Assembly (NCBI RefSeq): GCF_021117275.1
Contig: NZ_CP088245.1
Span: 4,191,501-4,255,500 of the forward strand
DNA length: 64,000 bases
Direction: 5' to 3'
DNA from: Metabacillus sp. B2-18
Lineage (GTDB): Bacteria > Bacillota > Bacilli > Bacillales > Bacillaceae
Shown piece by piece: positions 1,936-18,437 of the stretch. The notes beneath the pieces are model-generated. The model worked only from the letters and a program-made list of their open reading frames with translations. It was not told the DNA's origin and did no database searches. Positions within the stretch are counted from its first letter, which is position 1; the number at the start of each line of letters is the position of its first letter. A program made the position numbers and the translations under genes.

Positions 1936-2277
1936 CTATATTAATGTTTGAAAATAATTTTCCGCCTCTTCTATTGTTTTATATAACCCCATAAAAGTAT
2001 GAAATCTTACAATAGTAAAAATCTCGTCTAACGGGGGATTTACACCTGATATAACTAACTCTTTTCCTTCTTTTTTTGCCTTCATAGCTGCATCCGCGAT
2101 AACACCTAAAGAAGTGCTATTTAAATATTTTACGTTTTCTAAATCCAAGATAATATACTGGCTTGATTTTAATAGATGCGTTTGGATATCCTCTTTAAAT
2201 GATTCATTATTTTTAATTGTAATTTCGGTTTCCTTAACTTTTAAGATATCGACGAGTTCTTTATGAATTAACTCCAC
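1936..2277 (-). CDS. STAS-domain anti-sigma antagonist-like protein
   Basis: A single STAS domain of about 113 residues. Proteins of this family (SpoIIAA, RsbV) bind an RsbW-like kinase and are switched off when a conserved serine is phosphorylated. The expected site is visible in the LNSTSLGV segment after the central beta strand, with N-S-T in place of the more usual D-S-S/T. I chose a GTG start at 2277 because an AAAGGA sits 8 bases before it; ATGs at 2319 and 2286 are in frame but have no properly spaced site. It follows cheB closely and is the third STAS gene in the island. Its cognate kinase is not adjacent; the candidates are at 14193 and 16805. Confidence 0.85.
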   Translation of the reverse strand: MELIHKELVDILKVKETEITIKNNESFKEDIQTHLLKSSQYIILDLENVKYLNSTSLGVIADAAMKAKKEGKELVISGVNPPLDEIFTIVRFHTFMGLYKTIEEAENYFQTLI

Positions 2278-2319
2278 AGTAACCATCCTTTCTTCATTAG
2301 TGGCTGTTTCCACCAACAT

Positions 2320-3351
2320 TTACAACAATGCATGTCTTATTTTATCGTACATTTTAAACAATGGAGCCTGTTCATCTGATAATCCAGCTTCATCAATCAC
2401 TTTTGGCATACCATAGACAACACATGTTTCTTTTGATTCAGTCAGGACCAGTCCTCCTAATTGTTTCACCTTCCGACAACCGCGTAACCCATCATCACCC
2501 ATTCCAGTCAAAATGACAGCGAGCAATCGTTCTTTGTATAGAGGAGCAGCTGATAATAATGTAACATCTACAGAAGGCTTATATAATGTTTCCATACCTG
2601 CTGAAATCTTTAATTTTATTTGATATACGTTTCTTTCATTTTGATCAATTGTTGTCTGTAGCCCTGCAGGAGCAATGTATATTGTACCTGGTTTAAGAAT
2701 TTCATTGTGCTCTGCCTCTTTTACCTTAAGTTGACATAATGAATCAAAACGATCTGCCAAAGGCTTCGTAAAGCCTGGTGGCATATGCTGAACAACCACA
2801 ATAGGAAGGTGAAAATCTGACGGAAATTTCGTTAGTATCGTTTGTAATGCTGACGGTCCACCTGTGGAAGTACCGATAAAAAGAAGTTCTTTGCTCATTT
2901 CGACCATTTCTTCTGTGTGGACTTTATTGTCTGGAACAGCCTCTTCCTTTTGTATCAAAACTGGTAACTTTGCTGAAACTGCTACAAGTAATCTTTGATA
3001 AAAATCGTCAAGAAATTCTGTATTATTTACAAGGACCTCTTTTATAACAAAATCTACTGCTCCTAATTCAAAGGCTTCAAGTGTAGAATCTGTCCCATTG
3101 CTTAGCATAACAACTGGTACTGGATTTTCATTCATTAATCTTCCTAGCGTTTGAAGACCATCTAATTCAGGCATTTCAATATCTAGTGTTACAATAGAAG
3201 GCTTTAGCTGCTTTACCTTTTCAATTGCATCCAACCCGTTTCTTGCTTTTCCAATGACAAAAAAATCAGGGCTTGCCTCTATTAAAGTGGAAATAGTTTT
3301 CCTCATAAAAGCAGAATCATCCACAACTAACACTCCATATTTGCCATTCAT
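2320..3351 (-). CDS. cheB: Chemotaxis response regulator protein-glutamate methylesterase CheB
   Basis: CheB removes methyl groups from (and deamidates) receptor glutamates for adaptation, and is activated when CheA phosphorylates its receiver domain. The receiver domain fills residues ~5-115, with acidic pocket D11/D12, phosphoacceptor D57 and K104. After a linker, the esterase domain shows the triad S162 (GTSTGGP), H189 (VVQHMPPG) and D286 (GMGDDG). The length of 343 residues is normal. The start ATG at 3351 has AAAGGGG upstream; a longer in-frame start at 3402 would overlap cheR. It begins 4 bases after the cheR stop, so the two are translated together. All catalytic residues are present. 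Confidence 0.95.
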   Translation of the reverse strand: MNGKYGVLVVDDSAFMRKTISTLIEASPDFFVIGKARNGLDAIEKVKQLKPSIVTLDIEMPELDGLQTLGRLMNENPVPVVMLSNGTDSTLEAFELGAVDFVIKEVLVNNTEFLDDFYQRLLVAVSAKLPVLIQKEEAVPDNKVHTEEMVEMSKELLFIGTSTGGPSALQTILTKFPSDFHLPIVVVQHMPPGFTKPLADRFDSLCQLKVKEAEHNEILKPGTIYIAPAGLQTTIDQNERNVYQIKLKISAGMETLYKPSVDVTLLSAAPLYKERLLAVILTGMGDDGLRGCRKVKQLGGLVLTESKETCVVYGMPKVIDEAGLSDEQAPLFKMYDKIRHALL

Positions 3352-3355
3352 TTTG

Positions 3356-4162
3356 TTACCCCTTTCGATAGTAGAAGGTCCCATCTGTACTGATCGTCTC
3401 AAAACCTATCCCCATTGTAGATATGTTTTCTGCATGACCTAAAAAGAGATATCCACCTTTTTTAAGTGAGTGATAAAATGAGGTTGCCACCTTTTTAACC
3501 GTTTCAGCATCAAAATAAATTAAAACGTTCCGGCAAAATATAACATCATACAAACCTTCATTTCTCATATTTTCTTCATCAAGTAAATTTAAGTATTTAA
3601 AAGTGATCGTATCTTGTATGTCTTTTTTCACACTATAATGATTTTCAGTTTCTTCAAAATATGTGTCAAGCCATTTCTGCGGAATACGTCTAAAAGATAG
3701 CGATTTTTTATGATAAATTCCGTTAGTTGCTGTTTGTAGCACCTTTTTATTTATATCTGTTGCAGTGATCGTTACCTTGTCCTCTAATGTTACATCAAGA
3801 TCATTTAACATCATTACAAGAGAATACGGTTCTTCCCCTGTTGAGCAGGCAGCACTCCAAATTTTTATTGGTTGTTCAAGTGCTCTTTCTTTTTTCAGTA
3901 TTGGTATTACTTTATTTTGGAAAACATGAAGTTGTTTATCTTCACGATAAAAATAAGTTTCATTAATTGTTAAAAGTTCTACAAGAATATCCCACTCTTT
4001 TGGGTTTTCCTCTAAAAGACGCATATAACTCCATAATGTTACACTTAATTGTTCCAGACGTTTTGAAATTTTTGCTTCTAAAGAAGAAATATTATTCAAG
4101 TAATTTAATCCACAATACTCATAAACCAATTGAGCTAATTGCTTTAGCGCAAAATTTTCCAT
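3356..4162 (-). CDS. cheR: Chemotaxis protein methyltransferase CheR
   Basis: CheR transfers methyl groups from S-adenosylmethionine to receptor glutamates. The 268-residue protein has the N-terminal helical domain, then the SAM-binding fold with NETYFYRE, the SAACSTGEEPYS loop, the acidic ATDIN strand end and the FCRNVLIYF motif. The start at 4162 was chosen for AAGGAG 9 bases upstream; the longer frame to 4198 lacks such a site. It sits between the giant receptor and cheB. Neither receptor in this window ends in an NWETF-like tethering pentapeptide, so docking must use another mode, as in many Bacillus receptors. Confidence 0.95.
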   Translation of the reverse strand: MENFALKQLAQLVYEYCGLNYLNNISSLEAKISKRLEQLSVTLWSYMRLLEENPKEWDILVELLTINETYFYREDKQLHVFQNKVIPILKKERALEQPIKIWSAACSTGEEPYSLVMMLNDLDVTLEDKVTITATDINKKVLQTATNGIYHKKSLSFRRIPQKWLDTYFEETENHYSVKKDIQDTITFKYLNLLDEENMRNEGLYDVIFCRNVLIYFDAETVKKVATSFYHSLKKGGYLFLGHAENISTMGIGFETISTDGTFYYRKG

Positions 4163-4208
4163 ATTGCGTATCTCCTTTTTCCTAATAAATTGATTCATAA
4201 ATATATTT

Positions 4209-4267
4209 AAGGGTCAGACACTTTTAAACAGTGTGATAGATTATATTCACTGTAAGGTCTGACCCTT
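4209..4267 (-). repeat. Long inverted repeat between giant receptor gene and cheR
   Basis: AAGGGTCAGAC at 4209-4219 is repeated perfectly in inverse at 4257-4267. The interior can extend pairing through ACAGTG/CACTGT. It lies 10 bases after the receptor stop and before cheR. No T-run follows, so it could be a processing or stability element, a partial attenuator, or a small mobile palindrome; I cannot tell which. Confidence 0.6.
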
Positions 4268-4276
4268 ATCCTACTA

Positions 4277-7200
4277 TTAGTTTACTGACTGAAGTGTACG
4301 TTGGATGTCTTTGTTTGTATCCTTGATTGTTGATGATAATCTAGTTACTCCATCAATATCTTTCGCACTTTGCTTAAACATAGCACTTGTTTCATTCATT
4401 ACTTTTTCTAGCTCAAGAATTTCATTTAATTGTAGTTTTGTTGCTTCAGTTATTTCTTCAGATTGATCTTTAACAGCTTGAATAAGTTTTACAACATCAT
4501 CACTTTCTGTTGTTAAGCCTTTTGTTTCTGTCGTAACAATCGTCATTTGATCAGCAATATTAGCAATACTCTTCGTGATGTCTTTAATCAGTTCCGTTTG
4601 CTCTGATGTTGATTGTGTCACAAGTTCAGCTTGATTTGTGACATCACTTGTAATCGAAACAATTGATCTAGTTTGTTTTGTTTGTTCTTCAAGTGCTGAT
4701 GTAATTTGGAGCATTTGCTCTTTAGCAGATCGAATATCATTTGTAATTTCTTCAGCTCCACCTGCTTGTTCAATCGTAGCATTAGTGACCATTTCTGCTT
4801 GATTTGTCATAGATTGAGCAGATTGCACAACACTTTCCGCTTGTTTTGCTTGTTCAACCGTTGCAACTGTTACTTGTCTTACTTGTTCACGAGCTTCAAC
4901 AACACCTGTGATAATTTCTTCTACACCTGTTACTTGTTCTTTTACTGATTCTGTTACTTGATTTGCTTGGTTCGTAATAGATTCAACTGCATTTACAACC
5001 TCTTGTGCTTTTTTCGCTTGCTCGTCAGTTGCTGTAGTGATTTGTCTCACCTGCTCACGTGCATTCGTTACACCTTTAATGATCTCTGTTACACCAGCTG
5101 TTTGCTCCACCATTGCTGTCGTAACTTGTTCAGCTTGATTTGTAACGTTTTCCATTGCCTTTACCATCTGTTCAGATTGCTTTGTTTGTTCCACCGTAGC
5201 TGTAGTAATCTGCTTCACTTGTTCACGAGCATTGATCACACTTTTAATAATATCTTCTACTCCAGCAGCTTGTTCTTTCATCGAATCTGTTACTTGTCTT
5301 GTTTGCTCAACCATACTACTAACTTCAGTAATAATCATTTGAGATTGTTTTGCTTGTTCCTCTGTTGATACTGTAATCTGTCTCACTTGCTCTCTTGAGT
5401 TACGAACACCCTCGATTATTTCATCAACAGCAATAGCTTGCTCATTCGCTGCATTCGTCACAAGCTCAGCCTGCTTTGTTACATTCGCTACCGATTCTAC
5501 AATGTTTTTCGACTGCTGTGCTTGCTCTTCTGTTGCTGTTGTAATTTGTTTTACTTGCTCACGCGCGTTAACAACACTGTTAATAATTTCAGTTACTCCT
5601 GCTGCTTGTTCTTTTACTGCTTGAGTAACTAGCTCGACTTGATTTGTCATACTTTCTATTGAGCCGACAATATGTTGAGATTGCTTCGCTTGTTCTAATG
5701 TTGCATCTGTAATTTGTCTTACTTGGTTTCTTGCATTCAGAACACCTTTAATAATTTCTTCCACTCCAGAAGTTTGTTCAACCGTTGCTTTTGTTACTAA
5801 ATCTGCTTGTGTTGTTACATTTTCAACAGATTTTACGATATCCTGGGCTTGTACAGCTTGCTGAGTAGTAGCTGTGGTAATTTGCGAAATTTCTGTCGTA
5901 ATATTTTCAACACCATCTACAATTCGAATAATTGCATCACTAGCACTGTCTGAAAGCTTATAGCCTTGTTCAACTTTTTCTTCACCAATCTCAATAGCCT
6001 TAATTGCATCAGAGGTTTCACCTTGAATACCTTTAATTAACGTAGCAATTTCCTTTGTAGCGGATGCTGTTCTTTCAGCCAGCTTACGAACTTCATCTGC
6101 TACAACACTAAACCCTTTTCCATGCTCTCCAGCTCTGGCTGCTTCAATCGCTGCATTTAATGCAAGTAGATTTGTTTGCTCTGCAATATCATCAATCACT
6201 TCGATAATACTACCAATTTCATCTGAGCTTTTTCCTAGACTTTGCATAACCGTAGAAGCTTGCTTAACAACTATGCCAATTTCTTTCATCCCATCAACTG
6301 ATTGTAAAACTGCTTCACGACCATTTTGCGCTTCATGAGCTACGTTTCCTGTTAATGAATTAACATTTTCAGCATTAGCAGCCACTTGTTCAATAGATGC
6401 AGCCATTTCTTGAATGGACTGATTTGTTTCTTTTGCCGAATTTGTTAAACTTTCTGCATTTACCGAAACACCTTTTATTGATTTACCCATTTGCTCAATG
6501 GAGGCAGATACTTGTTCAACAGAGCTTGCTGTACTTTGTGCATTTCCTGCTACCTGTTGTATTGATGCTGCTAGCTCTTGGATAGAAGCTGCTGATTCCT
6601 CAGATGATTTATTCAGACTTTCTGCATTTACTGAAACTCCTTGTATTTGACTACCCATTTCTTCAATAGCTGCAGATACTTCCTCAACGGCCATGGCTGT
6701 ACTTCTTGAATTACCAGCTACTTGTTCGATGGATGCTGCCATCTCTTGGATTGCATCATTTGTTTCTTTTGCTGAATTTGTTAAACTAACTGCATTTGCT
6801 GCCACACCTTTGACCGAATCACCGATTTGCTCGATCGATACAGAAACTTGTTCTACAGAACTTGCTGCACTTTGTGAATTCCCTGAAACTTGTTGAACAG
6901 ATGCAGCCATTTCTTGAATAGATGTGCTTGTGGATTCAACTGATGCCGCTAATACTTCAGCATTTTGAGTAACTCCTTTAATTTGACTACCCATTTCTTC
7001 AATTGCAGCTGACACTTCTTCAACTGATGCAGAGGTACTTTCTGCGTTTTTTGACATCTGCAAATTGGATGCAGCCATTTCTTGAATTCCATCATTTGTT
7101 TGTTTAGCTGAGTCTGTTAAACTAACAGCATTATTCGCTACTTGCTCAATTGAAACAGCCATCTCTTCAATTGCTGCAGATACTTCTTCAACAGAGTTTG

Positions 7201-7999
7201 ATGTACTGCCTGCATTCCCAGCAACTTGTTGAATAGATGCCGCTAGTTCTTGAATGGCTGCAGTCGTATCTGTAGCTGACAATGTTAAGCTTTCTGCGTT
7301 CGCTTCAACACCTTTAATTGATTTTCCCATTTGCTCGATTGAAACAGAAATTTGTTCTACAGAAGCTGCTGTTTTCTCAGAGTTTCCTGATACTTGTTGA
7401 ATAGATGCTGCTAATTCTTGAATAGCCTCACTCGTACTTTTCGCGGAATCTGTTAAACTTTCCGCATTTGTTGCAACTCCGACAATCGATTTGCTCATTT
7501 GTTCCATCGATGCTGAAACATTTTCAATAGATTTTGATGTTTCAACTGAATTTCCTGATACTTGTTCAACTGATGCAGCAATTTCCTGGATAGAGTGTGA
7601 TGCATCTTTTGCAGATCCTGTTAGTACATTTGCATTTTGAGCAACTGCAGTAATTTGGCTCGCCATTTCTTTCATTGCAGAAGTGATTTCATTTAATGAT
7701 TTTGAGCTGTTTGTTACATTTTGATCCAAACCTTTTATTGAATTAAGAATACCTTCTAATGAAGAAAAAGATTTTGCCGTAGACTTTCTTAAGTTTTCTG
7801 CATTTGAAACAACACCATTAATTGATCTAGAAATCGTCGACATCATGTTCCCTGTTTGATTTAAAGATGCTGCCTGTTGATCATTTCCAGTTGAAATTTG
7901 TGTCATCACATCATTTAGTTGATTAATATCTTGTTCTAAATTTGACGATACTCTCGTTAGTTGCTCCATAGGTACTTTTGTTTTTTTAAAGAAACTCAT
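4277..7999 (-). CDS. Giant soluble methyl-accepting chemotaxis-type receptor with 56-residue repeats
   Basis: A 1240-residue protein with no signal peptide, membrane segment, HAMP or separate ligand domain. The heptad spacing of hydrophobic and Ala/Ser residues can be followed without a break from end to end. The conserved signalling tip ([18 protein letters not shown], then EVRKLAE) lies at about residues 607-642, so the hairpin turn near E625 is at the exact middle. A 56-residue (8-heptad) repeat occurs seven times before the tip (about 125-516) and seven times after it (about 741-1132). Ordinary Bacillus receptors have about 44 heptads in both arms together; here there are about 177. ATG at 7999 was chosen for AGGAGG 9 bases upstream; a TTG at 8005 is too close. 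It is co-transcribed with cheA upstream and cheR downstream. Confidence 0.93.
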
Positions 8000-8032
8000 A
8001 GCCAAAGGCCTCCTAGTTGTTTAATAGATGAT

Positions 8033-10591
8033 TTATGGTTGTGATACTAGCTCTGCTGAAAGATCTTGCAGATTAATTGATTGTAAGATCTCATTAAATT
8101 CAAGAATAATCACAACTCTATCCTCTAGCTTGCTTATCCCTTTAATAAGATTTGAATGATTATATTGACTACCTGACGGTGGTTGTTCAATAAGACTATT
8201 TGTAGTTTTTAATACTTGTGTTACTTCATCTACAAGGAAACCAACATCCTGCTGGTTATTTTCTACAACGATGATTCTTGATTTCTTTGTTTGTAACTGT
8301 TCTTGTAGATTAAATTTTCTTCTTAAGTCAATAACAGGAAGCATTTTTCCTCTTAAATTAATGATTCCTAACAGATCCTTAGGTGCATTGACGACTTTTG
8401 TTATAGCAGGAACGGAGACAATATCTTTCGCACGTTGGATGTCAATCCCATATTCCTCTGTATCCAGCTTAAAGGTGACAAATTGACGTTCGTCTTCCAG
8501 TTCTTTTCGTTTATTATCTGTAGCTGTTTCCGTATCTTGTGTACCTTGTTCGCGAACGACTGAGGAAACATCTAAAATGAGTGCAACACTTCCATCCCCC
8601 ATAATCGTTGCACCAGCTATATACGGTGGTGAACCAATATAAGGGCCTAGTGATTTAATGACAATTTCTTGATTACCAATTGTTTTATCAGCTATAATGC
8701 CAATACGTTTGTCTGCAATTCCTACAACAATGACAAATTCTCGTTTCTTTTCTTCCGCCACCTCTTCAGATAGATCCAACCCTAGTTTTTCCTTCATTCT
8801 CACAAGTGGCAGGACCCTTCCTCTCACAAGGCCAACTTCTTTTTCTTTAATTGTTTGAATATCTTCTTTATTTAATCGAATGATTTCAAGAACATTCACC
8901 AGTGGAATCGCAAATGTTTTTTGTCCAAACTTGACTAATAAGGAACTAATTATAGCCAATGTAAGTGGCAATTTAATCGTAAAAGTGGTCCCAACTCCAA
9001 TAGTTGAATCTATATCGATTAAGCCATTTAGCTTTTCAATATGTGCACGAACGATATCCATTCCAACACCTCGACCAGATATGTCTGTGATTTTCTCAGC
9101 TGTTGAGATACCTGATTTAAAGATGAGGAACATTGCCTCTTTATCATCTAATTTAGCTGCCTCTTCTTCAGAAATTGTTCCCTTAATAATGGCTGTTTGT
9201 TTGATCTTTTCTGGGTCAATCCCTTTTCCATCATCACGTATTGAAATAACAATATGATTTTCTTCATGTGCCGCACGAAGTTCAATTTTACCTTTTCTTG
9301 ATTTGCCTAAGCGTTCACGTTCGTCAGGTGGTTCAATTCCATGGTCAATTGAATTCCGAAGCAAATGAATAATTGGATCACTAATTTCTTCTATTAATGT
9401 TCGATCTAGCTCTGTTTCTTTTCCGGTCATAACAAAGTCAATTTCTTTATTTGCTTTTTGCGTTGTGTCCCTCACCATACGAGGGAACCGATTGAAAAGT
9501 TGTTCAATTGGTAGCATTCTTGTTTTCATCATGCCTTCTTGAAGTTCAGTGATTACACGACTTAAATGGTTTGTTACCTCGTCGAGTGTTTCCATATCAT
9601 CTTCTTGACGCGTATCACGATCTGCCAATCTACCACGAACATCAACTAATCTTGTTTGGTCTATCACTAATTCGCCTACTAAATTCATTAAGTGTTCAAG
9701 TTTATCCACATCTACTCGGACGGTTGGATTAATTTTTGCCTTTGGACTTCCTACAGGCTTATCATCTTGCACTTGTTCTAATTGGACTTGTGGACTCGGA
9801 ACAGCCAGCTCTTTTTGATGTGAATTCATATTCTCTTCTGTTATTTGATTGATGTTCACAAACTTGATATCCGATATTTGATTAATAATTTCAAGAATTT
9901 CTTGTTTTGTTCTCATGGTGAGAAGGATGAAAGCCATTTCTCCTTCAAAGCCTTCAGACTTCTCCATCTCATCAATGGAAGGAAAAGCACCAACAATTTC
10001 CCCTGCTTCTTTTAAGTTATTATGAATTAAGAGTGCTCTTACATTTTTCATCAATGCTTCATTAGAAAGCTTAATCGAGATCTCCAGCGCATTATGGCCA
10101 AAAGCTAGACCACTAATCACTACATTTTTGGTGTAATCATCTAACTCAGTTGTGATTTGATCTTTTGTAGGTTTAGCATTTGGTATTTCTTCTTCTTTCA
10201 GTTGTTGTGAATGAAATTCATTCAACTTATCAACAAAAGGTTGAATATTAATTTCCTCGAGATTTCCATTTAAAATGCCATCTTTTAAAATTTTGATAAA
10301 ATCGATGCTTTCAAAAATAACATTAACTAGTTTAGGTGTAACAGCTAGCTTTTGATTTCGAACCTGATCAAAAACATTTTCTAGATAATGAGTAAATTCT
10401 TTCATTTGCTCAAAGCCCATTGATGCCGATGACCCCTTAAGTGTATGAGCGGCTCGAAATATATTTTGAATGGTTTCAATTTTTTCAGGGTGCTGTTCTA
10501 GCACTAATATCTCTGAATCTAGTATTTGTAATTGTTCATCCACCTCATCGAGGAATACTCCCAGATAGGCAGATAAGTCAAAATCAGTCAT
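8033..10591 (-). CDS. cheA: Chemotaxis histidine kinase CheA with two C-terminal CheW domains
   Basis: CheA autophosphorylates and passes phosphate to CheY and CheB under receptor control. Order of domains in 852 residues: HPt with phosphorylated H49 (AAHTLKGS); linker with P2-like segment (~150-260); dimerisation helices (~290-365, KLEHLMNLVGEL); HATPase with N-box NSIDHG and glycine loop DDGKGID (~380-545); a CheW-like P5 domain (~550-685); then a second full CheW-like domain (~710-850). Bacillus subtilis CheA is about 670 residues with one such domain, so the extra one is a fusion. All kinase motifs are intact. It follows a separate cheW by 20 bases and precedes the giant receptor. GGGAGG precedes the ATG. 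Confidence 0.95.
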   Translation of the reverse strand: MTDFDLSAYLGVFLDEVDEQLQILDSEILVLEQHPEKIETIQNIFRAAHTLKGSSASMGFEQMKEFTHYLENVFDQVRNQKLAVTPKLVNVIFESIDFIKILKDGILNGNLEEINIQPFVDKLNEFHSQQLKEEEIPNAKPTKDQITTELDDYTKNVVISGLAFGHNALEISIKLSNEALMKNVRALLIHNNLKEAGEIVGAFPSIDEMEKSEGFEGEMAFILLTMRTKQEILEIINQISDIKFVNINQITEENMNSHQKELAVPSPQVQLEQVQDDKPVGSPKAKINPTVRVDVDKLEHLMNLVGELVIDQTRLVDVRGRLADRDTRQEDDMETLDEVTNHLSRVITELQEGMMKTRMLPIEQLFNRFPRMVRDTTQKANKEIDFVMTGKETELDRTLIEEISDPIIHLLRNSIDHGIEPPDERERLGKSRKGKIELRAAHEENHIVISIRDDGKGIDPEKIKQTAIIKGTISEEEAAKLDDKEAMFLIFKSGISTAEKITDISGRGVGMDIVRAHIEKLNGLIDIDSTIGVGTTFTIKLPLTLAIISSLLVKFGQKTFAIPLVNVLEIIRLNKEDIQTIKEKEVGLVRGRVLPLVRMKEKLGLDLSEEVAEEKKREFVIVVGIADKRIGIIADKTIGNQEIVIKSLGPYIGSPPYIAGATIMGDGSVALILDVSSVVREQGTQDTETATDNKRKELEDERQFVTFKLDTEEYGIDIQRAKDIVSVPAITKVVNAPKDLLGIINLRGKMLPVIDLRRKFNLQEQLQTKKSRIIVVENNQQDVGFLVDEVTQVLKTTNSLIEQPPSGSQYNHSNLIKGISKLEDRVVIILEFNEILQSINLQDLSAELVSQP

Positions 10592-10611: not shown

Positions 10612-11052
10612 CTATAATTGCTCATATAGAACTTTCTCTAAATGAAGAATCCCAATAACTTGATCATTTAGCTTTGCAAAGCCAGTAAAGATCTCTTCAT
10701 CTACTTTCAAACCAGGTGGGGGTTCTACGTTTTCCTCTTCAAATTTTGTGACCATTCTTACTTCATCCACCATTAACCCTATGTTTTCATTTGTACCTTG
10801 AACAATAACAATCCGATTTTTTTTGTTTCTTTCTGAAATTGGTAATTCAAAACGCTTATGCACACTAACAACCGGAATAATGCTTCCGCGTAAGTTAATA
10901 ACTCCTTGAATCATTTCATTAATTCCAGGAATGCTTGTAATGCTTGGAACTCGTAGAATTTCAACCACTTCTTCTATGGATAATGAATAAAGTTGTTGAT
11001 TTACGGAAAATACGACAAATTGAACTCTGCCTATATCAGAAGCAACCGCCAA
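10612..11052 (-). CDS. cheW: Chemotaxis adaptor protein CheW
   Basis: A stand-alone CheW domain of 146 residues that couples receptors to CheA in arrays. Typical features are the opening strand VVFSVNQQLYSLSIEEV, the conserved INLRGSIIPVV segment, and the late VDEVRMV strand. The start codon is TTG at 11052, with AAGGAGG 8 bases upstream. It is the first gene of the operon cheW-cheA-receptor-cheR-cheB-STAS-GAF. With the two CheW-like domains in the neighbouring CheA, this operon encodes three such modules. Confidence 0.95.
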   Translation of the reverse strand: MAVASDIGRVQFVVFSVNQQLYSLSIEEVVEILRVPSITSIPGINEMIQGVINLRGSIIPVVSVHKRFELPISERNKKNRIVIVQGTNENIGLMVDEVRMVTKFEEENVEPPPGLKVDEEIFTGFAKLNDQVIGILHLEKVLYEQL

Positions 11053-11388: not shown

Positions 11389-11748
11389 TTAAGAACAAAA
11401 TTTCTGAAGTGCTTCTGTAATTCGGTCCGGAGAAAATGGCTTCACTAAGAAATCTTTTGCTCCTGCTTGAATGGCCTCAACAACCATTTGCTGCTGCCCC
11501 ATTGCAGAGCACATAATAACTGTTGCGTTTGGGTCAAAAGCTTTAATTTCACGAACAGCTTGGACTCCATCCATAACAGGCATTGTAATATCCATAGTCA
11601 CTAAGTCCGGCTTTAGATCTTTATATTTTTGTACAGCCACTTCACCGTTCTCTGCTTCACCAACTACTTCATGTCCTGCTTTTGTGATCATATCTTTTAG
11701 CTGCATTCTCATGAATGCTGCATCATCTGTTACTAGTATTCTTGCCAT
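11389..11748 (-). CDS. cheY: Single-domain response regulator CheY
   Basis: A 119-residue stand-alone receiver domain. The acidic pocket is in VTDDA near the N terminus, the phosphoacceptor aspartate in TMDITMPVMDG near residue 54, and the conserved lysine in FLVKPFS near residue 104. Such proteins carry the CheA signal to the flagellar switch or another output. The ATG at 11748 follows an AAAGGAAGGGG stretch. It is paired with a CheX-like phosphatase, 27 bases after it, so the two probably set signal strength and duration. As there are STAS/kinase/phosphatase modules around it, its target may not be the flagellar motor. Confidence 0.93.
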   Translation of the reverse strand: MARILVTDDAAFMRMQLKDMITKAGHEVVGEAENGEVAVQKYKDLKPDLVTMDITMPVMDGVQAVREIKAFDPNATVIMCSAMGQQQMVVEAIQAGAKDFLVKPFSPDRITEALQKFCS

Positions 11749-11775: not shown

Positions 11776-12228
11776 TTAGTCTATCATTAAGCCAACTGCT
11801 AATTTGTTGCCATTTTGAAATGTTACCTCTACTTCTATTGCTTCTCTAAATCCAGAAAGTGTTGAATTTCCTTCCATAATGGTTGGAGCGGTAATATCGA
11901 TGGTCACACCTTTTGAAAAAATATGCGTACAAAGTCCGCCAGAAAGCATATTTCCTAGTTCACCGGAAAAAGATTTTAACATTTCTCCCTCTAGTGCCAT
12001 TCCAAACATTAATTCTCCAATTGAGCCAAAAACATCAGCATCTGCTTTATACAAAATTTTCCCCTTAACAGCCCCTGTTACTCCAACAAGTACTCCATAC
12101 TGTAAGGATAATTCTTTTTGCACGATAGGTACTGAGACATCTTCATATGGAATAGGAACAATCTGTTTAATCGAGTCGAGTATTCCTTCCTGAAAATCTT
12201 CTAATGTTGTTGATACAGTCGCACTCAA
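11776..12228 (-). CDS. cheX: CheX/CheC-family CheY-P phosphatase
   Basis: About 150 residues with the CheX fold. These proteins dephosphorylate CheY-P using an E-x-x-N pair. The pair is visible in SFSGELGNMLSGG near residue 90, inside the typical helix, and the C-terminal strands EVEVTFQNGNKLAVGLMID match the family. There is one E-x-x-N motif, as in CheX, rather than the two of CheC. The start is TTG at 12228 with AGGAGG 8 bases upstream; a GTG at 12237 overlaps that site. It is co-transcribed with cheY. The symbol is by family, and CheC-like naming is possible. Confidence 0.85.
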   Translation of the reverse strand: MSATVSTTLEDFQEGILDSIKQIVPIPYEDVSVPIVQKELSLQYGVLVGVTGAVKGKILYKADADVFGSIGELMFGMALEGEMLKSFSGELGNMLSGGLCTHIFSKGVTIDITAPTIMEGNSTLSGFREAIEVEVTFQNGNKLAVGLMID

Positions 12229-12401
12229 TAAAAACACCTCCTGATTATTGGTTGTTGGTCTCTCTATTATTTTTTAATTCTATTAACTCGTATACTTGAA
12301 TTATATCTAAGACTTTTTTCTTATTATATAGTACATCATTCCTAGGAACGGCTCAATAATAAGGTTGAATTATTGTAGAAATTTGCGGATTTTCTTCAAA
12401 A

Positions 12402-12438: not shown

Positions 12439-12714
12439 TTACTTTATGTTAAAAAGTGTATTAAGTTTTGTGATATGTAACAGTTTTTGAACTTTATCAT
12501 TTGCATTTAAAAGTTCCATTTTCTTTTTCTGTGCATTTGCCACTTCGTAAACGGAAACAAAAATTGAAATACCAATACTGTCTACATAGTCAACACTTTC
12601 TAAATCAATTAGCAAACCTTGATTACTCTTATTCAACGTATCAAGCAGATCAGTTAATATCTTTTGATTATTTCTGAAATTCAATTCTGAATGTTCAATA
12701 TAAAATGTGTCCAT
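12439..12714 (-). CDS. STAS-domain anti-anti-sigma factor-like protein
   Basis: A 91-residue single STAS domain. The phosphoacceptor serine is in DYVDSIGISIF, the usual D-S-x-G context, so it can be a true substrate of an RsbW-like kinase and of a PP2C. The ATG at 12714 has AAGGAAGG 5 bases upstream; the frame reaches 12753 but the extension would overlap the phosphatase gene. It is the last gene of a compact unit: kinase (14193), LOV-PP2C (12726), STAS. That is one full partner-switching set with no sigma factor nearby. Confidence 0.88.
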   Translation of the reverse strand: MDTFYIEHSELNFRNNQKILTDLLDTLNKSNQGLLIDLESVDYVDSIGISIFVSVYEVANAQKKKMELLNANDKVQKLLHITKLNTLFNIK

Positions 12715-12725
12715 AACAACCTTCC

Positions 12726-14189
12726 TTATGATAATTTTACATAAATAAAGCAAACATCATCTTCATGTTCCGTTAACATTAGGCGTTTATTTATTTTATC
12801 TAAATTCTTACGTTCAATAAACTCAGCGGAAAAAACGTTTCCATTTTCCGTTAGAATTTCATTCATTCCATCAGTATGTAAAAACAGTTCACTATTCGGT
12901 TGATAATAGATGGTGCCCATCCTAAAATCATAATTCTTTAAAATGCCTACTGGAATAGAAGTAGAGTCAAACATTTTCACAGTATCTCCATTTTTCAAAT
13001 AAAAATCGGGATGACCTGCATTTATATAATCAATCCTTCTTTTTTTAGTATCTATCAAAAGGTAGATACATGTAAAGTAAAATCTTCCAATTTCTTCATT
13101 TTTTTCTAAAAATAAACTGATTTGATGATCATTCAACTTCGCTAAGACCTCTTTAGGGTCTATTATCTGCTGCTCAAGGAGAAAGTTTATTTCTGCGTTA
13201 ATAAGCATGGTAATAAGAGACGGTGCTATTCCATGTCCCATTACATCCATTATCGTCACGACATATTGATCCTCATTTATTTGATGCCATTTGTAATAAT
13301 CTCCTCCTAATTTATTAGAAGGATGATAAAAGCCCGCAATTTCAATTAGATTGTTATGTAAAGGGTGACTAAGGAGCATTTGCTGCAAATTTCTCGCTAA
13401 ACTTAAATCAATAGAAATATCTAGCTCCATCATTTTCCTTTTTGTTATATCAACTTGTATTCCAATAAAGTGAGTAAGCTCCCCATTTGGTGAAAAAACC
13501 GGACTAATCGTTAGTTCATTCCAAAAAGTTGAGCCATCTTTACAGTAATTAAGAATTTCGCAGTGAATTTCCTTCCTATTTTCAACGGCTTCTCTTAGAG
13601 AAGCTATAGTATTTTTACTACTTTCAGGTCCTTGGAGAAATCGACAGTTTTTACCGATTATTTCTTCACTCCTATAACCTGTTATCTCCTGAAAAGATTT
13701 GTTTGCAAAAATAATAGGATTATCATGCTGATTCGGGTCAGTTATTACTATTCCAACTCCTGTTTGATGAACAGCCTCCGCTAATAGAAAATTTTGTTTC
13801 CTCAACTGCTTTTTTTCATTCCTCAAGGCAACTAGATTTCCAACATCTTTTAGGACAAACCATATGTATTCCTGTGAATCATGTATGATTGTATCAAACC
13901 AGAAGCTGTAATAATGCTTTTTTAATTTACTTGAAATGGCTGTGATGATCATATCCTTCTGAATATCACCAGCCTGCATCATTGGATATTGTTCTTTTAA
14001 CAAGTGAAGGGAATTCTCTGTTAAAAAGTGAAACTCCGAATAATGTTTACCTGTAAAATCATCTTGATGGTAGCCCAATACTTTTTGAGCTTTCTCATTG
14101 ACGTAAACATATCTTCCCTTTTTATCCATGACAAAAACGATTTCAGGGTAATTTTTAAATAGTTGCTCGAAAATAGTAGGTTCCTTCAT
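12726..14189 (-). CDS. PAS-LOV-PP2C phosphatase (RsbU/SpoIIE type), likely blue-light sensor
   Basis: Domains in 487 residues: PAS (~5-120), LOV (~135-250), then a SpoIIE-type PP2C (~265-487). LOV domains bind FMN and form a cysteinyl adduct in blue light. The signature NCRFLQ is complete at 181-186, giving adduct cysteine C182; the FMN-contacting N/N pair lies in LNYCKDG and FWNEL, and the glutamine in FIGIQVD. The phosphatase keeps its metal aspartates in GGDYY (~296), MDVMGHG (~315), HTDG (~440) and EDD (~477). PP2Cs of this class dephosphorylate STAS antagonists. B. subtilis YtvA has LOV joined to STAS; here LOV is joined to the phosphatase instead. It starts 3 bases after the kinase gene. 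Confidence 0.9.
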   Translation of the reverse strand: MKEPTIFEQLFKNYPEIVFVMDKKGRYVYVNEKAQKVLGYHQDDFTGKHYSEFHFLTENSLHLLKEQYPMMQAGDIQKDMIITAISSKLKKHYYSFWFDTIIHDSQEYIWFVLKDVGNLVALRNEKKQLRKQNFLLAEAVHQTGVGIVITDPNQHDNPIIFANKSFQEITGYRSEEIIGKNCRFLQGPESSKNTIASLREAVENRKEIHCEILNYCKDGSTFWNELTISPVFSPNGELTHFIGIQVDITKRKMMELDISIDLSLARNLQQMLLSHPLHNNLIEIAGFYHPSNKLGGDYYKWHQINEDQYVVTIMDVMGHGIAPSLITMLINAEINFLLEQQIIDPKEVLAKLNDHQISLFLEKNEEIGRFYFTCIYLLIDTKKRRIDYINAGHPDFYLKNGDTVKMFDSTSIPVGILKNYDFRMGTIYYQPNSELFLHTDGMNEILTENGNVFSAEFIERKNLDKINKRLMLTEHEDDVCFIYVKLS

Positions 14190-14192
14190 TTT

Positions 14193-14606
14193 TTAGCCCT
14201 CATCCAGGTGGTAGGCTAAAAAAACTTTTCGACCGTTATCGGAATACCTTATCATATCTGAACATTTCTTCATGATGGCTATTCCTCTGCCTCTAATACT
14301 TCTAATATTATTTTCAAAATACTGATCAGGATTGCCGATAAGTTCTAACTTTTTTTTATAATCAAAGCCTTCTCCTTTATGGTCACATTCAACAGAAAAG
14401 CACTTTTCTTTCACTTCTAAATTTAAAGTTATTGGAATAGCTTTGTTTTCTTTTGTTCCATGCTCTAGCGCATTGTTAACTGCTTCCATAATTGAAAAAA
14501 TAATCACTGTTTTTTTTGCCCTTGCACATTTTTCAATAAATGCCTCGATGTGAGGCAAGCTTTGCTGAAATTGGTCGTGATCAGTAAAAACAAATGATTT
14601 TTTCAT
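14193..14606 (-). CDS. RsbW-like serine kinase / anti-sigma factor (HATPase)
   Basis: A 137-residue single GHKL ATP-binding domain. The N-box is EAVNNALEHG, the G1 loop DHKGEGFD and the G2 loop RGRGIAIMKK. Members phosphorylate a STAS antagonist and sequester a partner when the antagonist is phosphorylated. It is the first gene of the kinase-LOV phosphatase-STAS unit, so the three probably act together. The leader holds an inverted repeat (CTGTTTA, 5 bases, TAAACAG at 14647-14665) that could be an operator. Its target is unknown because no sigma factor is nearby. Confidence 0.88.
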   Translation of the reverse strand: MKKSFVFTDHDQFQQSLPHIEAFIEKCARAKKTVIIFSIMEAVNNALEHGTKENKAIPITLNLEVKEKCFSVECDHKGEGFDYKKKLELIGNPDQYFENNIRSIRGRGIAIMKKCSDMIRYSDNGRKVFLAYHLDEG

Positions 14607-16804: not shown

Positions 16805-17224
16805 CTAGGCGCCCCTTTCTTTCTTAACTAAAACCGTAAATAGACCCTCTTCATCATTATGATGAAAAGAAATACTGTCTACTAGCTCCCTTACCATAAG
16901 CAGTCCTCGTCCACGTTCTTCTAAAAGGATATCTTCTAGCTCATGAGTAAAGACCTCACCTTTCACGCCACCACATTCATCAGTTATATGAATGATATAC
17001 TCTGAATGAGTCATTTCAACATGTGCATTAATAGAATAGAGTGATGACGGAGCAGAAAAAGTTTTCACCGTTGCTTCAAAGGAATTAATTAGTAGTTCAT
17101 GAACAATAAAGCAGATATGGTCTCTTACAGAACATTGATAAAGTGATAGTTGCTCCCTAATTGCTTGCTCTAGTTTCTCAATCTCATTTAAGTCACATGG
17201 AATTTTAACATTTAACGTAAACAT
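16805..17224 (-). CDS. RsbW-like serine kinase / anti-sigma factor (HATPase)
   Basis: A 139-residue GHKL domain with N-box HELLINSFEA, G1 DECGGVKGE and G2 EERGRGLLMVRE. These residues bind ATP and support a kinase acting on the neighbouring STAS protein. The ATG at 17224 has GGGGG five bases upstream; an in-frame start at 17263 would overlap the PP2C gene. It differs clearly from the kinase at 14193, so the two modules are not recent duplicates. Confidence 0.87.
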   Translation of the reverse strand: MFTLNVKIPCDLNEIEKLEQAIREQLSLYQCSVRDHICFIVHELLINSFEATVKTFSAPSSLYSINAHVEMTHSEYIIHITDECGGVKGEVFTHELEDILLEERGRGLLMVRELVDSISFHHNDEEGLFTVLVKKERGA

Positions 17225-17237
17225 ACATACCCCCACA

Positions 17238-18437
17238 TTATTTAACCGAAATTGATACCGCACAAATATCGTCGTTTAATGTGTTTAATCGACTAACTTG
17301 GTCCTTCAGCAACGGAATGATGGAAACTTTATTGTTCACATACTCTTTATATCGATCCATTAACGCTAAAATAAGTTGCTGTGAATCATTTTTTTCGATT
17401 AAATGATCAAGTACTCCATCCGAGTAAAGGAGTATTTCACATGGATTTTGATAGGTTACACTCGCTTCTACATATGGTAACTCATCCAATATTCCTAATG
17501 GTACGCCACCTTCCTCCAATATCTCAGAAGTTCCGTTATGATTGACTAGCATTCCTGCGGGGTGTCCGGCATTATAATACTTAATCACATTGTTGTTCGT
17601 ATCAATTACTAGATAAATACCTGTTATAAAGGTGGTAACCTTGGAATTATTCTGAAACCACTCTTTTATTAAACGATTTAACTCACACATTACTTCATAA
17701 GGAGAGTTCACATCATTGGCTATTGTTTCTAAAATAGGTGTAATTGCCATTCCTATCATTGCTGATGAAACTCCATGTCCCATAACATCGAGGACAATTG
17801 CTGTGTACACGCCATTCTTTACTTTCCCCCAACGGCATAGATCACCTGATAAATCGGAGGAAGGAGTGTAAAGGAAATCCACCTTTATTTGTTCATCATC
17901 TATTACTTCACTTAAAAAGGAAGTCTGAATGTTCTTCGCTAACTGAAGCTCCAATGTTATTTGTTCTTCATATTGTTTTAGCTTTGAATACGCCTCTTCT
18001 AGACTAATGGTGTTGCTGATAAAGCTTGCAAACATCTCCAAAACAGAAATGTCTTCTTCACTTAAACGGTTTGGAGTCGGGTCTAGAGCACATAATGTTC
18101 CAAAAACTGATCCATCTTGCATGTAAATAGGTACCCCTGCATATGATCCAATTGAAAATGCATCTGTTACGGCCATGCTTTTAAACGGTTCTTTATTTTC
18201 TGCATCTTTTACTAATAAAGGTTTTCTATTGTTAGCTACAATATGGCAGTACGACATTTCGACTGGTTCGTCAACATGGCTCGGAATTGGACATCCGCCT
18301 TCCAGATTGAATTTTTCTAGTATTTTAAATCGGTTATTTCTAGTAGTTGCGACAAAAAAAGAACGAGCCGTTATCGTTTCACTCATTAATTGCATGACGT
18401 TCAATGCTGCCTGTTCAAACTTCTTTAATTTACTCAT
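17238..18437 (-). CDS. GAF-PP2C phosphatase (RsbU/SpoIIE type)
   Basis: 399 residues: GAF domain at ~15-150, a short coiled coil to ~175, then a SpoIIE-type PP2C. Metal-binding aspartates are in SGDL (~198), LDVMGHG (~217), YSDGVLD and NDDICAV (near the C terminus). The GAF domain would sense a small molecule or redox state and tune dephosphorylation of the STAS protein at 16437. It is the first gene of the unit phosphatase-kinase-STAS-Cache receptor and is preceded by AAGGGAG and by a sigma-D-like promoter. Confidence 0.9.
   Translation of the reverse strand: MSKLKKFEQAALNVMQLMSETITARSFFVATTRNNRFKILEKFNLEGGCPIPSHVDEPVEMSYCHIVANNRKPLLVKDAENKEPFKSMAVTDAFSIGSYAGVPIYMQDGSVFGTLCALDPTPNRLSEEDISVLEMFASFISNTISLEEAYSKLKQYEEQITLELQLAKNIQTSFLSEVIDDEQIKVDFLYTPSSDLSGDLCRWGKVKNGVYTAIVLDVMGHGVSSAMIGMAITPILETIANDVNSPYEVMCELNRLIKEWFQNNSKVTTFITGIYLVIDTNNNVIKYYNAGHPAGMLVNHNGTSEILEEGGVPLGILDELPYVEASVTYQNPCEILLYSDGVLDHLIEKNDSQQLILALMDRYKEYVNNKVSIIPLLKDQVSRLNTLNDDICAVSISVK

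Follow-up and report, generated by a model that had tools for sequence, protein, structure and literature searches.

The window, a stretch of 64,000 nucleotides from Metabacillus sp. B2-18, contains a group of chemotaxis genes that all lie on the minus strand. In the direction of transcription they code a CheX/CheC-like phosphatase (11776..12237), a CheY-like receiver (11389..11748), CheW (10612..11052), CheA with two CheW-type (PF01584) stretches, the second of them C-terminal (8033..10591), a giant chemoreceptor (4277..7999), the methyltransferase CheR (3356..4198), the methylesterase CheB with a receiver (2320..3402), and a STAS-domain protein (1936..2319). Upstream of the che genes there are two partner-switching sets with a SpoIIE-type phosphatase and a HATPase, at 12439-14606 and 16805-18437. 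The set at 12439-14606 also has a STAS component and is conserved beside the che genes in two genomes of the same genus, so the pathway may have a regulatory switch, not flagella, as its output. An inverted repeat (GGGTCAGAC / GTCTGACCC, about 4209-4219 and 4257-4267) was noticed by eye after the stop codon of the receptor, ahead of cheR; it could be what is left of a small mobile element, or a processing hairpin.

Architecture of the giant receptor

The receptor reading frame opens at TTG 8005 (4277-8005, 1242 aa), but the ATG at 7999, which follows an AGGAGG site, is more likely to be the start, giving a protein of 1240 aa. Its MCP signalling domain (PF00015) scored 213.6 bits against a Pfam cut-off of 34.6, and the hairpin tip is near-invariant. 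DUF948 was also above its cut-off, a match that we take as generic coiled coil; the remaining listed Pfam matches were below theirs, and no listed NCBIfam model reached its cut-off. With Pfam matches listed to E 1, HAMP (PF00672) was not among them, and no recognised sensor domain was found in Pfam. No 19-residue window reached the threshold for a transmembrane segment, the maximum mean Kyte-Doolittle value being 0.79. The preliminary description, which had proposed a protein with neither membrane anchor nor sensor domain, agrees with both scans.

The protein begins with a non-repeat segment (residues 1-122, 7634..7999) whose first residues are MSFFKK. Most long giants likewise start with methionine and a small residue, then have F/L once or twice and basic residues next; this short hydrophobic-basic start is possibly a docking or membrane-touching one. 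Seven 56-residue repeats form most of the N-terminal arm (residues 123-514, 6458..7633), and a partial unit 0 (residues 515-569, 6293..6457) leads to the signalling hairpin region (residues 570-682, 5954..6292), where mean pairwise identity was 92% among the 10 orthologs compared. The tip glutamate is E625, at 6125-6127, which leaves arms of 624 (N) and 615 (C) residues. The C-terminal arm repeats this arrangement in mirror order: a partial unit 0 (residues 683-738, 5786..5953), seven full units (residues 739-1130, 4610..5785) and a non-repeat segment (residues 1131-1240, 4280..4609).

Repeats start at 123, 179 ... 459 in the N-arm and at 739, 795 ... 1075 in the C-arm in the 1240-residue numbering. 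Seven repeats per arm at matching distances from the tip had been proposed earlier from starts that are 2 higher, as if counted from the TTG, and both the self-match lags and the profile scores confirm them. The top lags were 112, 56 and 168 in both arms, followed by other multiples of 28. At lag 56 the N-arm reached a BLOSUM score of 1.98, where 500 shuffles retaining the composition of each heptad position gave 0.77 (sd 0.08); for the C-arm the two values were 2.03 and 0.48 (sd 0.09). The shuffle maximum over all heptad lags was 1.11 for the N-arm and 0.87 for the C-arm. The 56-residue period is thus present in both arms, together with a weaker sub-period of 28 residues. At the DNA level, Tandem Repeats Finder detected the 168-bp period in the N-arm only. 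Within an arm the protein units are 39-71% identical. By profile scores along the register each arm has seven full units; there is also a partial unit on each side of the tip, and weak units stand at both ends. The single heptad register that had been suggested also holds: the a/d phase does not shift anywhere outside the tip region, within which it is ambiguous.

We modelled the central 448 residues with AlphaFold. The model has a single break, at 623-627, with pLDDT 80 and a low pTM of 0.34, and so the predicted fold-back at about residue 625 is found where it had been expected. It superposes on 309/309 residues of the Thermotoga maritima receptor 2ch7_A at 4.0 A. The two proteins share the tip sequence and the fold-back, and align without gaps from 109 residues before the tip to 99 after it. 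Other structural matches (SMC arms, toxin and pore helices, PrgA) had low identity and are generic long-helix matches. A relative of 1014 residues was modelled poorly (pLDDT 56.5, pTM 0.25, further breaks), with secondary structure alone usable. The model of the central fragment supports an antiparallel helical hairpin folding back at the tip.

The ordinary receptors encoded by the same genome have C-arms of 154 residues, and the arms of the giant are about four times longer. Both these receptors and 2ch7 are presumably of the 44H type, from which the giant differs by its tandem 56-residue repeats and by the lack of a membrane segment. Alexander and Zhulin are said to be the source, in 2007, of the length classes of chemoreceptors and of the symmetric heptad indels. 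With about 88 paired heptads per arm, or a rod of about 92 nm by a published rise, the giant is as unusual in length as the preliminary description had held: the classes 24H-64H correspond to 12-32 paired heptads in PMC6628036 and PMC6943060. According to PMC6628036, a few rare receptors appear longer than 32.

Distribution and length ladder of the relatives

A scan of GTDB contigs with the CheA encoded beside the receptor as query gave 26 loci, in 10 of which a giant receptor directly follows CheA. This CheA was found in 3/21 genomes of the genus, and receptor searches detected giants in at least 4/150 genomes of the order and at least 5/141 of the class, the genome of the window being counted each time. 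Elsewhere giants were found in 3/39 genomes of one further family, in 1/140 of another order, and in 2/7, 1/3 and 1/2 of smaller groups. These are lower bounds from overlapping genome sets, in some of which only four candidates per genome were scored. Altogether we recognised 17 distinct giants (the window, G048, G032, L059-L062, L064-L066, L069-L071, G234, G365, G288 and G261). Fifteen are complete; contig ends cut G261 in the N-arm and L065 before a stop codon. A frame of 1910 residues in G201 was an artefact of the search, which had read across the CheA stop; the real receptor has 1014 residues.

In a set of 5.8 billion proteins nothing longer than 961 aa appeared among the best 120 matches per search (about 8000 candidates scored in each); this tells nothing about rarity, because few candidates were scored and public genomes do encode giants. 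In the open-licence literature we identified no description of this giant receptor.

The operon is conserved. Genes cheW-cheA lie upstream of the giant in 16/16 loci where the receptor start is present, cheR-cheB lie downstream in 15/16, the contig ending in the sixteenth (L065), and a STAS gene follows in 10/16 at the threshold used. Lysinibacillus antri (L063) has a CheA 69% identical to that of the window without a giant receptor after it, which seems to have been lost or replaced. One genome of Bacillus wudalianchiensis has two systems: a giant-receptor locus (L061) and a related one (L077), in which an ordinary receptor whose C-arm has 133 residues comes after CheA.

Arms of 624-625 and 613-616 residues were found in 11/15 complete giants, and the cut L065 has an N-arm of 624 and a C-arm of at least 612. 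Aligned to the window receptor, with identities of 48-98%, these 7+7 giants show, besides start-codon choices, only short gaps (1-3 residues) close to the termini and no internal indel of repeat size. Length and order are the same in two genomes of the same genus and in relatives from several named genera, which rules out an assembly artefact.

The four other complete giants are shorter, with N/C arms of 512/501, 467/448, 462/447 and 411/392 residues. Relative to 624/615, L069 lacks 112/114 residues (2 repeats), G234 162/168 (3 repeats), G365 157/167 (3 repeats) and G288 213/223 (4 repeats), the ends varying by as much as 11 residues; counted from corresponding start codons, G365 and G288 differ by 56/56. 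Unit counts by profile score are equal on both sides of the tip, although they lean equally on length in Caryophanon, Ureibacillus, Lysinibacillus and G234, where the outermost units score weakly.

Certain membrane receptors stand on the same ladder. The tip pattern was recognised in 137/174 listed database proteins, for which arm lengths were taken. Receptors with a C-arm of 195 residues (n=3) have 203-204 residues from membrane to tip and one unit per arm, while those with a C-arm of 251 (n=38) have a median of 258 and two units per arm, the second weaker; the C-arm grows by 56 and the median membrane-to-tip distance by 54. These proteins, such as P0130 and P0016, share one or two repeat units per arm with the giants, which have four to seven. 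They differ from the giant also in having a membrane anchor and, mostly, an annotated four-helix sensor (PF12729). Those with a named source are from Bacillus or Neobacillus. Symmetry is not universal among the listed receptors. Those with a C-arm of 253 (n=64) have a median of 306 residues from membrane to tip, and many are HAMP-annotated. Four listed membrane receptors are unequal (C-arm 333-343 versus about 304), the extra part being without repeat units. The earlier suggestion that both arms expanded together is supported by the ladder of giants and membrane receptors.

Growth of the two arms

How did the arms come to match? For each arm we obtained a matrix of similarities between its repeats. 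Averaged over 12 long proteins, the N-arm matrix correlated with the mirror-paired C-arm matrix at r 0.82, the best of 5040 pairings, and the reversed order gave r -0.58; in single proteins fewer than 5% of pairings were as good in 9/12. In both arms repeats 1 and 3 are alike, as are 2 and 4, the pattern that would follow if a block of two repeats had been duplicated. Of the shorter giants, G234 (r 0.86), G365 (0.77) and G288 (0.96) behaved similarly, with 3-4% of the few pairings as good. Recent copying was seen in G365 and G288, genomes of one family: DNA of repeats 2 and 3 is 97.0% identical in the N-arm and 98.8% in the C-arm of G365, and 94.0% and 94.6% identical in G288, and these tracts are placed at mirror distances.

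These patterns are only suggestive of duplications at mirror positions, as judged from sequence comparison. It is nearly an even chance that they reflect homogenisation in the middle of the arrays together with a gradient of conservation that starts at the tip, and not duplications that occurred in pairs. When row effects were removed, the correlation dropped from 0.82 to 0.55, a value reached in 132/5040 permutations, and in the six closer sequences alone to 0.23 (957/5040), which indicates that it is partly a gradient from the tip. The mirror correlation was not seen in L069 (r 0.15); with 4-5 units to an array, repeats 2 and 3 are central or nearly so in both arms in any case; and G365 has three more N-arm tracts at least 95% identical without a C-arm counterpart at the threshold used. 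However, a gradient does not predict that the likeness of 1 to 3 and 2 to 4 recurs in both arms, and the strongest recent tracts of G365 are centred at -222 and +219 from the tip.

A CheA tree (21 rows, identified by coordinates; L057, L058, L073, L074, L076 and L079-L084 left out) groups the 7+7 loci with the receptor-less L063 at support 90/86, below the starred level of the tool. The 5+5 L069 lies outside this group, and G234, G288 and G365 (4+4 or 5+5, from other families) form a distant clade, with systems of other receptors in between. By this placement, the length of the giant has therefore probably changed more than once. In the shorter-rod lineage, CheA of L096, L097 and L101 has 655-675 residues compared with 825-872 in the other rows (L065 has 549, its start being uncertain), which, from length alone, is consistent with absence of the second CheW domain.

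Adaptation region or spacer

Sequence comparison firmly documents the repeats, their mirror placement and common register, the conserved operon and the matched arm lengths of relatives; sequence analysis likewise shows neither a membrane anchor nor a recognised sensor domain. We propose, with a probability of about 65%, that the protein is the soluble receptor of a dedicated CheW-CheA-CheR-CheB system, whose hairpin was lengthened in 8-heptad steps by duplication of segments like the methylation helices. Two hairpins would come together as they do in other receptors, giving a rod of about 90 nm whose tip would bind CheA/CheW. The E/Q pairs along the rod would be modified by CheR and CheB. As no ligand domain is present, the kinase would receive its input from how the long adaptation region is modified, from something attached to the rod at its far end, or from both.

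In other receptors, E/Q pairs of this type are methylation sites. Four places per N-arm repeat and two per C-arm repeat mostly keep them: the window giant has 26/28 and 14/14, the 11 further long relatives have 21-27 of the 28 N-unit pairs, and L069 has 20/20 in its N-arm; the Caryophanon giant has only 7/14 C-unit pairs. By eye, the C-arm pairs lie within one residue of those of ordinary receptors (about +115/116 and +122/123 from the tip), while the N-arm positions have the heptad phase alone in common with the ordinary receptors of the genome. The strict methylation consensus speaks against the proposal, with only 5 matches in the N-arm of the window giant and 0 in the C-arm; a relaxed one has 15 and 8.

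The preliminary description had suggested a scaffold or spacer for a cytosolic array. Such a role is not established, and the methylation-helix-like repeats, the E/Q pairs and the adjoining CheR and CheB point at least equally to an adaptation region. On the spacer explanation the repeats would do no more than fix how long the rod is, and with it, for instance, how far apart two CheA/CheW layers of a cytosolic array stand; the E/Q pairs would be surface residues usual in coiled coils. We regard it as possible, though it would not be our first choice. It accords with the near-constant length of 11 complete proteins whose identity goes down to 48%, and with the published cytosolic arrays, described in PMC3964821 as two opposed layers 30-35 nm apart. 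The columns of the alignment also speak partly for it, for the C-arm repeats conserve core glutamines and not exchangeable E/Q. These glutamines are near-invariant (up to 100%), as would be expected of structural core residues. Columns at least 90% E or Q number 54/392 in N units and 65/392 in C units, and purely E-or-Q columns with both common 9/392 and 2/392. Departures from a consensus Q went to E in 21/39 cases in N units and 17/76 in C units; change of a consensus E to Q was the minority in both (26/91 and 21/158). Against a spacer, the N-arm pairs remain E or Q while several columns next to them drift, cheR and cheB adjoin the receptor in all loci but the one whose contig ends, and length varies between lineages.

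Because the E/Q pairs are kept in a methylation-like setting, we favour, at modest odds, an expanded adaptation region on a cytosolic rod that would control the kinase over a pure spacer. Equal arms would be kept in such a rod because an unpaired repeat would leave one helix without a partner. Neutral growth of the arrays by slippage, in which equal counts are coincidence or shared ancestry and nothing selects for matching arms, is very improbable: the repeats are indeed tandem DNA copies, recent in G365 and G288, and independent length changes are few (about four contrasts by our estimate), but in every contrast the change in repeat number is about equal in the two arms, and the 7+7 relatives have no internal indel of repeat size.

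A bolder form of the adaptation reading, which we consider doubtful, is a class of soluble receptors tunable in length, where paired mirror duplications add rungs of about six methylation-type pairs each and the summed state, not a ligand, sets the kinase. If true, the rod of the window giant would be a long modification register of about 40 pairs per monomer.

Among known systems, the cytosolic array receptors of Rhodobacter sphaeroides and Vibrio cholerae also work off the membrane with CheA/CheW, but their layers lie 30-35 nm apart and a 92-nm rod would need far more space (PMC3964821 for the layers). FrzCD of Myxococcus xanthus is likewise cytosolic, without an obvious sensing domain and with CheR/CheB homologs in its system; it has two HAMP domains, a DNA-binding N-terminus and a model of about 300 A (PMC12077210), whereas the giant has no HAMP match.

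The giant receptors extend the range of chemoreceptor bundle lengths nearly threefold beyond the published classes. Together with the membrane receptors they form a natural ladder of 1, 2, 4, 5 and 7 repeats per arm, which could serve to test how signal and methylation travel along a receptor rod and to ask how the halves of a hairpin stay matched while each grows. For cryo-tomography, the prediction is that unusually deep cytosolic arrays would be seen in these bacteria.
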